Part shown: piece by piece, positions 10,063 through 63,065 of the stretch
How the letters are laid out: each line of letters opens with the position of its first letter
How positions within the stretch are numbered: position 1 is the first letter of the stretch
NCBI RefSeq assembly: GCF_014695585.1
Contig: NZ_JACJON010000028.1
Span: 62,001-126,000, forward strand
Direction of reading: 5' to 3'
Source of the DNA: Microcoleus sp. FACHB-831
GTDB taxonomy: Bacteria > Cyanobacteriota > Cyanobacteriia > Cyanobacteriales > FACHB-T130
DNA: 64,000 nucleotides
The notes under the pieces: generated by a model
Told to the model about the DNA's origin: nothing
The model's database searches: none
The model's input: the letters and a program-made list of their open reading frames with translations, nothing else
Program-made: the position numbers and the translations under genes

Positions 10063-10213
10063 AATGTCAAGGGTTTGGATAACTAACTCAAAATTTCCGT
10101 GCTTTGGTTAGATTTTTAGCTCTATGTAACAAAATGTACTGAAAATAAAATGGTAGTTTTATATAAAATAGCGGGGATGCCAAGCAGGGGAGAACGTTTG
10201 GGGTAGAAGGCGA

Positions 10214-10244
10214 GATCCCCGACTTCTTAAAAAAGTCGGGGATC
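10214..10244. repeat. Dispersed hairpin element, copy A (hairpin only)
   Basis: Perfect stem GATCCCCGACTT (10214-10225) and AAGTCGGGGATC (10233-10244) with a 7-base loop. It shares the stem core CCCGACTTCTT...AAGTCGGG with copies at 11.7, 11.9 and 63.0 kb, but lacks their conserved downstream tail. Confidence 0.7.
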
Positions 10245-10443
10245 TGAAATTAACTAAGGTCAATATAAATGACGTAGTTTTACAAAAATGTATAATTTCG
10301 ACTTAAAACAAGACAAGTTAATCAGATATAAGCAAAGTATTGCAAAAACAATCAAACAATTATTGCTTTTCCCCTCAAACTAGGGGGAGTTATCGATAAT
10401 TAGAAGTAGATAAATAAAATAAGTTTCGCGGGAGAGCAGTGTT

Positions 10444-11452: not shown

Positions 11453-11689
11453 ATGAAAATTGTATTGATTTGGTTAATTCGCGGTTATCGGGTGCTGATT
11501 TCTCCTTTGTTTCCCCCAGTGTGTCGATTTCATCCGACTTGTTCGCAATACGCAATGGAAGCGGTAGACCGATTTGGTGCTTGGCGCGGTGGGTGGATGG
11601 CGATAAAGCGCATTTTGCGGTGTCATCCTTTGCATCCCGGCGGTTACGATCCCGTCCCACCCTTAGAGTCTACGAAGGAAGAAAAATGA
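11453..11689 (+). CDS. yidD: Membrane protein insertion efficiency factor YidD
   Basis: A 78-residue protein that assists YidC-dependent insertion of inner-membrane proteins. The family signature is complete: [20 protein letters not shown], then [18 protein letters not shown], then [17 protein letters not shown]. The three conserved Cys (PVCRF, TCSQY, LRCHP) are present. Usual length is 70-90 residues. It starts at an ATG just after the divergent polyprenol kinase gene. Its stop lies immediately before copy B of the dispersed hairpin element. Confidence 0.95.
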
Positions 11690-11800
11690 GCGGTGGTTCG
11701 CCCTGCGAGATACCCGACTTCTTAGAGAAGTCGGGTATCTGAAACTCTGACATCTCACAATTCAAATATTATTGCTATAAGAATTTTGCTTAATTCTAAG
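11690..11800 (+). repeat. Dispersed hairpin element, copy B, with a degenerate CRISPR half-repeat at its end
   Basis: Begins right after the yidD stop. The stem is GATACCCGACTTCT (11709-11722) / AGAAGTCGGGTATC (11726-11739) with a 3-base loop. The tail TCTGACATCTCACAATT (11746-11762) and ATTGCTATA (11771-11779) follow. It is joined directly to GAATTTTGCTTAATTCTAAG (11781-11800), a decayed right half of the CRISPR repeat, which runs without a spacer into the first full repeat. Confidence 0.75.
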
Positions 11801-12909
11801 TTTCAATCCCTGATAGAGATTTTGGGTAATTGTAAGGCGTGATGCCAGCATCAAAACCGAGGTTAAAGAAGTTTCAATCCCTGATAGAGCAGTCGTAAAT
11901 GATTCGCCCTGCAAGCTCTCCGACTTCTTTAAGAAGTCGCGGATCTGAACCTCTGACATCTCACAATTCTGCATAGGATTGCTATAGGAATTTTGGTTAA
12001 TTGTAAGTTTCAATTCCTGATAGGGATTTTGGGTAATTGTAAGTTGTCTGGATTTGCTGACTCGCGCAGTTGGGTAGAAATGTTTCAATCCCTGATAGGG
12101 ATTTTGGGTAATTGTAAGTCGCCAAACAAGACTTTTACCAACTTCTGAATCGTTTCAATCCCTGATAGGGATTTTGGGTAATTGTAAGCACAACTTGTCA
12201 TGTTCTGTTTCCTGATACTTCTCTGTTTCAATCCCTGATAGGGATTTTGGGTAATTGTAAGGCCATACATACCCCATTAAGTAACAATTACTTTTGTTTC
12301 AATCCCTGATAGGGATTTTGGGTAATTGTAAGGATTCGGCCCCATGCGTAATGCTTTCTTCATGGTGGTAGCGTTTCAATCCCTGATAGGGATTTTGGGT
12401 AATTGTAAGTAGGCAATTCCTGGCTGAGATTGAAGAAGTCCTGGTTTCAATCCCTGATAGGGATTTTGGGTAATTGTAAGTCACTAGGGCGGCAGCCTGA
12501 TAAAAGCCAGAATCTGTTTCAATCCCTGATAGGGATTTTGGGTAATTGTAAGCGCAGGCGCAGATTGCCTTTGAATAGCTCAATAGAGTTTCAATCCCTG
12601 ATAGGGATTTTGGGTAATTGTAAGAACCAATGACGAGCCAATACAAGGAGCCTTAGAGTTTCAATCCCTGATAGGGATTTTGGGTAATTGTAAGATTCTT
12701 TCTTGAATGAAGCCTCTAAAGCTGCTGAGTTTCAATCCCTGATAGGGATTTTGGGTAATTGTAAGTTTTAGCGTGCGATAAGCTGCGGCATAAAAGTCCA
12801 GGTTTCAATCCCTGATAGGGATTTTGGGTAATTGTAAGAATTTGATACCAATCACGCCAATTGAATTGGCAAGTTTCAATCCCTGATAGGGATTTTGGGT
12901 AATTGTAAG
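11800..12909 (-). CRISPR. CRISPR array: 15 repeats of 37 bases (one interrupted) and 13 spacers
   Basis: On the plus strand the repeat starts GTTTCAATCCCTGATAGGG and ends ATTTTGGGTAATTGTAAG. Twelve identical copies begin at 12082, 12152, 12225, 12296, 12373, 12444, 12516, 12588, 12658, 12729, 12802 and 12873. Variants lie at 11800 (one mismatch), 11871 (split by an insertion) and 12007 (one mismatch). Spacers are 33-40 bases. Read on the minus strand the repeat ends in ATTGAAAC, the usual 8-base crRNA handle of class 1 systems (types I and III). The array is therefore probably transcribed right to left, with its leader beyond 12909. The degenerate copies all sit at the left, the expected old end. 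No cas gene lies in the window, so subtype cannot be assigned. Confidence 0.97.
11888..11986 (+). mobile_element. Dispersed hairpin element, copy C, inserted inside a CRISPR repeat
   Basis: About 99 bases separate the left 17 bases of a CRISPR repeat (11871-11887) from its slightly decayed right half (11987-12007). The insert carries TCGCCCTGCAAG, the stem CGACTTCTT (11921-11929) / AAGAAGTCG (11931-11939), and the tail TCTGACATCTCACAATT and ATTGCTATA. It is homologous along its length to copy B at 11690-11780. No coding capacity; a MITE-like or REP-like element moved in trans is the simplest description. Confidence 0.7.
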
Positions 12910-13169
12910 ACCAGCCGTCTAGAAACCAGCGTATATTTGGTTTTCGAGGTGCGGTTGCGCGTAACACTGAACAAAATACCATTGCCGACGCTAACTTGTA
13001 AAGTACCCATTCGGAATTTTTGCCCCAAAGCCAGCGTTAACAAAGGTTGAAGAAATTGCGCGAGTCCGGTTTGGGGCGCGATCGCCTCAAACACCCGTAA
13101 ATTAAACAATCCAGCCGCTAACTTCTTATCCCCTAAAAAAACAGCTACCCATCCGCGCCAGACAGCCAT
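12876..13169 (-). CDS. Possible truncated gene running into the leader-side end of the CRISPR array
   Basis: An ATG at 13169 opens a 97-codon frame whose first 85 or so residues look protein-like (MAVWRGWVAVFLGDKKLAAG, then LFNLRVFEAIAPQTGLAQFL). The last residues (QLPKIPIRD) are simply translated CRISPR repeat. A TAG stop lies eight codons upstream of the ATG, so this is the true beginning of the frame. I do not recognise the family. It may be the 5' remnant of a gene cut by the array, or a chance frame inside the CRISPR leader. Low confidence. Confidence 0.3.
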   Translation of the reverse strand: MAVWRGWVAVFLGDKKLAAGLFNLRVFEAIAPQTGLAQFLQPLLTLALGQKFRMGTLQVSVGNGILFSVTRNRTSKTKYTLVSRRLVLQLPKIPIRD

Positions 13170-16771: not shown

Positions 16772-16849
16772 TTATCTTTCTGCGCTAAATTGCCTGGCTA
16801 TTTGAATATAATTTGTCAGAATTGTTTCTATCCTGCAAGCAATAAAACC

Positions 16850-17557
16850 ATGAAACCTTATCAGCTAATTCCTATTTTGGAGTGTGGCGAATCGCTCGTC
16901 CCCATACCATTAGAAAACTTTGCCGTCGCTTCTCCCCATCCTTATCAAATATTAGGTGCTAATTATGGAGAGCGATCGCCTTATTATCTCCGCCAAAGCG
17001 TCCTCGATAGCCTCAAGTTAGCCCAAGCTAATTTGCAAAAGCACCATCCAGGCTGGCGCATTCAGATTTTTGATGCCTATCGACCCGTTGAAGTCCAACA
17101 ATTCATGGTAGATTACACCTTTGCCCAACTTGTTCAAGAGCAAAATTTGAACCTAGCTGAATTAACAGAAACTCAGAAGCAAAAAATTTGGGAGCAGGTT
17201 TATGAATTTTGGGCTGTACCCAACCTTAACCCAACTACGCCTCCCCCTCACAGCACTGGTGCTGCTGTCGATGTAACCCTAACTTTAGATACAGGCAAAA
17301 TTGTTGATATGGGGGGCGAAATTGATGAAATATCACAGCGATCGCATCCCAACTACTACGCCAACAGCACCAGCCCACTCCAATACCAGTATCATTTCCA
17401 TCGCCAACTGTTGTACGATGTCATGCGCGAGGCTGGTTTCCAACGTCATCTCAACGAATGGTGGCATTTCTCCTTGGGCGATCAGATGTGGGCGTGGCTG
17501 TGCAATCTAGAAAATCCCGATAAACCTAGTGCAGCACGTTACGGAAGAGTCGCTTAA
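16850..17557 (+). CDS. D-alanyl-D-alanine dipeptidase (VanX/DdpX family)
   Basis: Zinc peptidase of family M15 that cleaves free D-Ala-D-Ala during peptidoglycan recycling. It has the arginine motif IFDAYRPVEVQQFM, the zinc-binding HSTGAAVDVTL (His and Asp ligands) and the EWWHFSLGD motif (catalytic Glu, third zinc His). I start it at the ATG at 16850 (MKPYQLIPIL), giving 235 residues, the usual family size. A TTG at 16790 would add a Cys-rich 20-residue extension with no family support. No signal peptide with the short start, so it is probably cytoplasmic. It lies upstream of DUF3110 and murQ on the same strand; murQ is also a wall-recycling enzyme. Confidence 0.9.
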   Translation: MKPYQLIPILECGESLVPIPLENFAVASPHPYQILGANYGERSPYYLRQSVLDSLKLAQANLQKHHPGWRIQIFDAYRPVEVQQFMVDYTFAQLVQEQNLNLAELTETQKQKIWEQVYEFWAVPNLNPTTPPPHSTGAAVDVTLTLDTGKIVDMGGEIDEISQRSHPNYYANSTSPLQYQYHFHRQLLYDVMREAGFQRHLNEWWHFSLGDQMWAWLCNLENPDKPSAARYGRVA

Positions 17558-62987: not shown

Positions 62988-63065
62988 ACCAGCTCCCCGA
63001 CTTCTCCAAGAATTCGGGGAGCTGTAAGGTCTGACATCTCACAATTGTGCATAAAATTGCTATAG
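62988..63065 (+). repeat. Dispersed hairpin element, copy D
   Basis: Stem AGCTCCCCGA (62991-63000) / TCGGGGAGCT (63014-63023), then the conserved tail TCTGACATCTCACAATT (63030-63046) and ATTGCTATA (63056-63064). The tail is identical in these two blocks to copies B and C in the CRISPR region. It lies 50 bases before the DUF2808 start. Confidence 0.75.

Follow-up and report, generated by a model that had tools for sequence, protein, structure and literature searches.

A TA-flanked MITE inside a leader-distal CRISPR repeat of a Microcoleus array

Introduction

In Microcoleus sp. FACHB-831, one repeat of a CRISPR array is broken in its middle by a hairpin of 98 bases. The questions raised by this locus are what the hairpin is, how it came to lie there, and whether the array attracts such an element or tolerates it. 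The array was studied within a stretch of 64,000 nucleotides of contig NZ_JACJON010000028.1 (positions 62,001 to 126,000), hereafter called the window.

Miniature inverted-repeat elements (MITEs) inside CRISPR repeats are already in print. A 2016 paper (PMC4852346) describes 59 CRISPRs with transposon-struck repeats, including a 180-bp MITE in a repeat of Microcystis aeruginosa NIES-843, for which a flanking duplication CTATT is reported. Other sources describe a spacer of Haloquadratum walsbyi HBSQ001 that contains the MITE HqIRS37 (PMC3119063), cite MITEs in Microcystis CRISPR sequences (PMC11448079), or deal with IS and MITEs in cas genes (PMC10359306). Among the papers listed by the literature searches, none was seen on the present MITE in this CRISPR position. 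What is new here is thus another instance.

The array, its leader and the cas genes

The CRISPR array occupies 11800-12909 on the minus strand and has 14 whole repeats of 37 nt besides the split one. Twelve of the whole repeats are identical and two carry one change, and there are 12 ordinary spacers of 33-40 nt. The crRNA sense is that of the minus strand, on which the repeat ends in ATTGAAAC. The leader lies at 12910-12999 (minus strand) and can be aligned with the sequence before six other arrays, which belong to the genomes G341, G382 and G036, to G018 (two arrays) and to contig C42 of the Microcoleus genome itself. The local alignment score of the window leader with that of C42 was 25; the highest of 1000 shuffles reached 15. 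An open frame of 97 amino acids runs over the leader and the first repeat (12876-13169, minus strand); as it has no Pfam match, it is probably not a gene.

The C42 array comprises 64 repeats and is accompanied by a type I-D set with genes for Cas3d, Cas10d, Cas7d, Cas5d, Cas6d, Cas4d, Cas1 and Cas2d. Its repeats are identical to those of the window over the last 25 bases, toward the crRNA handle. Since no Cas family was found among the ten ORFs neighbouring the window array, and the sole cas1 of the genome is on C42, the window array is a second, distant array. With the leader at its right end, the hairpin (element B) and a second copy of it (element A) lie at the leader-distal, oldest end. 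Element B sits in the second or third of 15 or 16 repeats, depending on how the remnant beside element A is counted.

Sequences related to the repeat also occur outside these arrays. Two repeat cores, 75 bases apart, are present at C42:6443-6539 (L245:2444-2540) on the strand opposite to the operon. They start right after the Cas3d stop codon, in the interval that separates cas3d from cas10d in the type I-D operon, and might encode a crRNA-like regulator. The 22-nt palindromic core of the repeat (TTTCAATCCCTGATAGGGATTT, 0-2 changes) recurs at eleven places of the genome (C32:14694, C36:165844, C45:34909, C46:14974, C48:11433, C58:6651 and 6776, C62:2506, C67:332333 and 362179, and C81:19247), with no regular array within the 0.6-1.4 kb read around each. 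Further, nine pieces of Nostoc phage N1 (KU234532.1, about 16777-17014) match the window array at 78.8% identity, possibly as a phage-borne array.

Anatomy of the split repeat

A sequence-only reading of this DNA had proposed that a 99-base hairpin element splits one repeat, that the right half is decayed, and that this half abuts the next repeat without a spacer. The split is real, and its limits can now be placed at 11871-11886 for the left half, 11887-11984 for the insert and 11987-12007 for the right half. The left half (minus strand, 16 bases, GTTTCAATCCCTGATA) is intact, lies on the handle side and ends in TA; in crRNA sense it is the 3' half, TATCAGGGATTGAAAC. Element B, the 98-bp MITE at 11887-11984 on the minus strand, is bordered by a TA at 11885-11886 and by another at 11985-11986. 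The intact repeat has TA once, at the insertion point, and here both sides of the insert have it, so that the flanks join into the repeat of the array (GTTTCAATCCCTGA-TA-GGGATTTTGG...).

The decay of the right half (minus strand) amounts to two substitutions relative to the intact repeat, and 11985-12007, that is, the right TA with the remaining repeat, reads TAGGAATTTTGGTTAATTGTAAG. The spacer is indeed missing, as the right half and the next repeat have the last G, base 12007, in common. The insert itself begins with TAGCAATCC on the minus strand (at 11984) and has GACTGCTC at 11887, one base different from GACTGCTA; the core of its palindrome is at 11922-11938. In the arrays of relatives that were read, the 98 bases were never seen as ordinary spacer-repeat sequence.

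A dispersed family of TA-flanked elements

The hairpin was also described as a small mobile palindrome with further copies near 11.7 and 63.0 kb, and the genome bears this out through dispersed, sharp-ended copies, inverted termini and the duplication of TA. A search of the genome with the window copy (11888-12006) as the query returned 41 matches at E<=10, of which 27, at 26 places and some of them partial, had E<0.01. Several of these matches stop exactly at the limits of the insert, and the whole element serves well as an anchor. The conserved 17-mer occurs exactly three times in the window, against 0.15 expected. As the suggested genome-wide anchor it did poorly: when up to 3 mismatches were allowed, it matched 28 places and its reversed control 21; it is too short and too variable for counting.

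A consensus of 102 columns, covering the element and the TA at each side, gave 45-70 matches per genome at E<=1e-5 across six genomes, with 59 in the Microcoleus genome. These are not copy counts, since the palindrome can match on both strands and only part of the candidates was scored. Among the matches listed for the own genome and its relatives, more than 25 span consensus columns 1-102. Complete copies carry the terminal inverted repeats TAGCAATCCTA ... TAGGACTGCTA.

Target sites were sampled from 53 matches with flanks, which gave 49 distinct sites after four same-site entries had been dropped; the insertions of the window and of G341 are included. Of the 38 left ends scored, 29 were next to TA, as were 26 of the 38 right ends scored, the background being 7.1% per end. 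Both ends had it at 16 of the 28 two-ended sites; a cruder de-duplication had given 12 of 22. At the other 12, at least one side was without TA, which comes from decay or from misplaced ends. The element is thus short, has inverted ends but no transposase gene, and occurs in dispersed copies with the same ends and a target-site duplication, as a MITE does.

In addition to elements A and B, the window has a third copy at 62991-63062 (minus strand), which is intergenic, with one end decayed and a TA at 63063-63064. The hairpin part of a further, partial copy gives a weak match (E 1e-4) at 10213-10245 on the plus strand. In phage and plasmid collections, six cyanophage records showed partial matches at 60-80% identity, and a Calothrix plasmid showed a single match of 34 bases. 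Short, non-coding and dispersed elements are also represented in cyanobacteria by the MITE Nezha (cited in PMC10969869) and in Anabaena sp. 90, for which 147 MITEs are reported (PMC3542288); the likeness is one of general description.

A possible source of the transposase

Elements of the IS630/Tc1-mariner type are expected to duplicate a TA target site, and the present MITE is flanked by such a duplication. Full-length elements with a DDE_3 transposase (Pfam PF13358) and inverted ends TATAGC... are present in the Microcoleus genome and in its relatives. One of 1033 bp, with ends TATAGCAATTCTC and a reading frame broken into two or three pieces, occurs in G001 and G004; the own genome has one of 1024 bp, and G004 also has one of 950 bp. 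We take both these elements and the 98-bp MITE to be of the IS630/Tc1-mariner type.

The MITE resembles the insertion sequences of this type, such as the 950-1033-bp elements seen here, in its TA duplication and TATAGC ends. It differs from them in having no transposase, and its termini share 11 of 13 bases with those of the closest full-length element. Exact MITE ends were not found on a full-length element among the DDE_3 loci, and the reading frame of the best end-matching element is broken into two or three pieces.

One insertion and a duplication, or two insertions

Element A (11697-11777, minus strand) is the same MITE, which has lost its outer end beside yidD (11453-11689, plus strand). 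On its other side, a TA and a decayed half-repeat (11778-11800, minus strand) abut a repeat without a spacer. Thus, A and B are followed by the same decayed half-repeat and spacerless repeat at an offset of 206-207, and the two half-repeats have 2 substitutions in common. Within the MITE, A and B differ from the consensus in six common states, and four of these are found in no more than 2 of 37 others; A has 7 private changes and B has 9.

The shared mutations, the decayed half-repeat and the spacerless joint together favour one insertion followed by a duplication of about 207 bp. Judged from the sequences, this fits best and is probably what happened, rather than two insertions. The alternative is that A and B entered independently at the same TA of repeats that were already duplicated and decayed. 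It draws on the identity of the two copies, which is only 84% over 81 columns, and on the fact that each is nearer to some other copies: A to L151 (0.92) and L121 (0.91), and B to L119 (0.86). The same TA was also struck independently in G341. Moreover, another copy of the own genome (L157, contig C61) has a stretch with three of the four rare states shared by A and B, so that these three are not independent of each other but form one short stretch.

A free tree search left A and B unjoined; the best tree with the two constrained together was 11.5 log units above the free-search tree, and the AU test (p 0.73) did not demonstrate a clade of A and B. The better likelihood with A and B held together, the MITE states they share, and the common changes of the half-repeats with their spacerless joint speak against two insertions, which we regard as unlikely. 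A single insertion with a later duplication is therefore kept as the preferred course of events.

The neighbourhood of yidD was compared in other genomes as well. With up to 1.5 kb taken on each side, 27 of 29 related yidD loci were without an array by a spaced 16-mer test. The two with an array are those of G018 and G036, which show no MITE trace between the gene and the array; their arrays are different ones, so these are not strict empty alleles. In G036, the array lies downstream of yidD at a distance of about 450 bp and has the orientation seen in the window. In G018 (L340, C10:12500-19500, about 1905-2147), the terminal repeat forms the 3' end of yidD, providing its last codons (...PPKESVSIPDRD) and the stop.

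Split repeats in other genomes

Junction patterns, which varied slightly between searches and were anchored at the central TA of the repeat, were run against 388 genomes of the order, 217 of family f33, 61 of family f2 and 388 of the class, or 860 distinct genomes in total. Beyond the own genome, split CRISPR repeats were found in three, namely G341, G112 and G382. The order search gave 13 places, 10 of them without a CRISPR array and the others being the own locus, G341 and G382. The class search gave 10, of which 8 had no array, leaving the own locus and G112. Family f33 gave 47 places; among the 30 checked, 29 were without an array and the exception was G341. None of the 13 places in family f2 had an array. 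A contig scan, whose set possibly left out the own genome, gave four matches, all in non-cyanobacterial records and without an array.

The three cases are not alike. In G341, the same MITE family lies in the terminal repeat of 20, with cas1 beyond the other end of the array. In G112, another TA-flanked element occupies repeat 17, counted from the distal end, of an array of at least 107 repeats, the direction of this array being read from the repeat sequence alone. A third element, with a 10-bp duplication (CCCTATCAGG), lies in the penultimate of 10 repeats in G382. All four insertions, including that of the window, are in the leader-distal fifth of their arrays, which is a small sample. In G018, an array of 24 repeats has an apparently disrupted MITE copy close by, which ends about 20 bp past the terminal repeat. 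As for the array of G112 (contig C274, L299 and L307, from position 154), its repeats show the variant CCCTAATAGGGC at the old end and, among the repeats listed, the variant CCCTAGTAGGGT from about base 1846.

Tolerance rather than attraction

The sequence-only reading left it between using and tolerating a CRISPR repeat as a target. Tolerance is what the data support; a use of, or preference for, repeats was not borne out. A palindromic context of the target was absent in the 16 complete TA-flanked sites, the window and G341 included (p=0.53), and chance suffices to explain the insertion. The repeats of the two main arrays of the genome offer 173 TA sites. For 26 or 59 copies, the expected number of insertions in repeats comes to 0.011 to 0.026 when every TA site is counted as usable, and to 0.057 to 0.13 on the assumption that one in five is. 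At such expectations, one insertion in a genome is unsurprising in a survey of many genomes.

It can still be argued that the palindromic centre of the repeat is a preferred landing site. Four separate repeat insertions (own, G341, G112 and G382) lie at that position, and PMC4852346 adds to the Microcystis MITE with its CTATT duplication an IS in a Thermoanaerobacter repeat with the duplication ATAG. The common site is, however, no evidence of preference, because the search patterns were anchored at the central TA and the coincidence was built in. A single insertion in a genome is within the range of chance, 4 of the 860 genomes had one (with 30 of the 47 places of family f33 checked), and the 16 genomic sites have no palindromic flanks. 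A preference of this kind is therefore considered quite improbable, and the array is taken to tolerate the element.

Other possible roles of the hairpin

Elements A and B each stand directly before a repeat, and the half-repeat resembles the end of a leader. This could suggest that the unit is part of an array leader, or a regulatory element, and not a transposon. As a leader the hairpin is ruled out by the alignable leader at the opposite end. Many copies are also away from arrays, with an array nearby at 3 of the 70 MITE loci checked (own, G341 and G018). The RNA fold of element B was no stronger than that of its shuffles (z -0.33); with the repeat halves added, z was -1.84 and 9 of 200 shuffles were equally good. 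A leader or regulatory role is thus scarcely credible.

A different proposal is that the MITE, once inserted, was kept for a service to the array, for example as a transcript end or a barrier at the leader-distal end. The leader-distal position of all four repeat insertions would agree with this, as would the disrupted MITE just past the terminal repeat in G018. However, age and lack of renewal account for the position, the direction of the G112 array comes from its repeat sequence only, both A and B have changed, and the element alone has no unusual RNA stability. Such a service is very unlikely. In a broader form, TA-seeking MITEs would repeatedly enter the palindrome loop of cyanobacterial CRISPR repeats, survive only at the leader-distal side, mark or freeze the ends of arrays, perhaps act there, and serve to date the arrays. 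This generalization is doubtful and is offered only as a speculation.

Proposed history and its consequences

The account that we hold with high confidence is as follows. A 98-bp MITE of the IS630/Tc1-mariner type would have been mobilised by a transposase acting in trans. It inserted at the central TA of a repeat palindrome, in the leader-distal end of a second array that this type I-D genome possesses. As the flanks still show, the insertion duplicated the TA and divided the repeat. Later, a unit of about 207 bp (repeat, half-repeat, MITE, half-repeat and spacer) was probably duplicated, most simply by unequal exchange between repeats. The outer copy, element A, would then have lost its end beside yidD; the changes shared by the two copies point to both of these steps. 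The MITE may have persisted because the old repeats far from the leader are of least importance and undergo no renewal.

The split repeat is expected to have lost its folding as a Cas6 substrate, and the spacer at 11837-11870 is for this reason predicted to give no processed crRNA. The rest of the array would be unaffected.

The event is real, its mechanism is ordinary, and its kind has been described before. The MITE of NIES-843 (PMC4852346) likewise lies inside a CRISPR repeat with a flanking duplication, but it is reported to measure 180 bp with 5 bp (CTATT) duplicated, whereas here the element has 98 bp, the duplication is TA, and the unit was probably duplicated later. HqIRS37 (PMC3119063) is similarly a MITE within a CRISPR array; it sits in a spacer of a strain without cas genes, in contrast to the present element, which sits in a repeat of a genome with a type I-D set.

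The locus offers a clear example of a transposon that entered a CRISPR repeat and whose history of insertion, probable duplication and decay can still be read. It also cautions that half-repeats beside short palindromes can pass for leaders or odd spacers. The general picture of CRISPR or of MITEs is left unchanged by it. Such insertions recur in unrelated cyanobacterial arrays, and the four cases seen are all near the old end.
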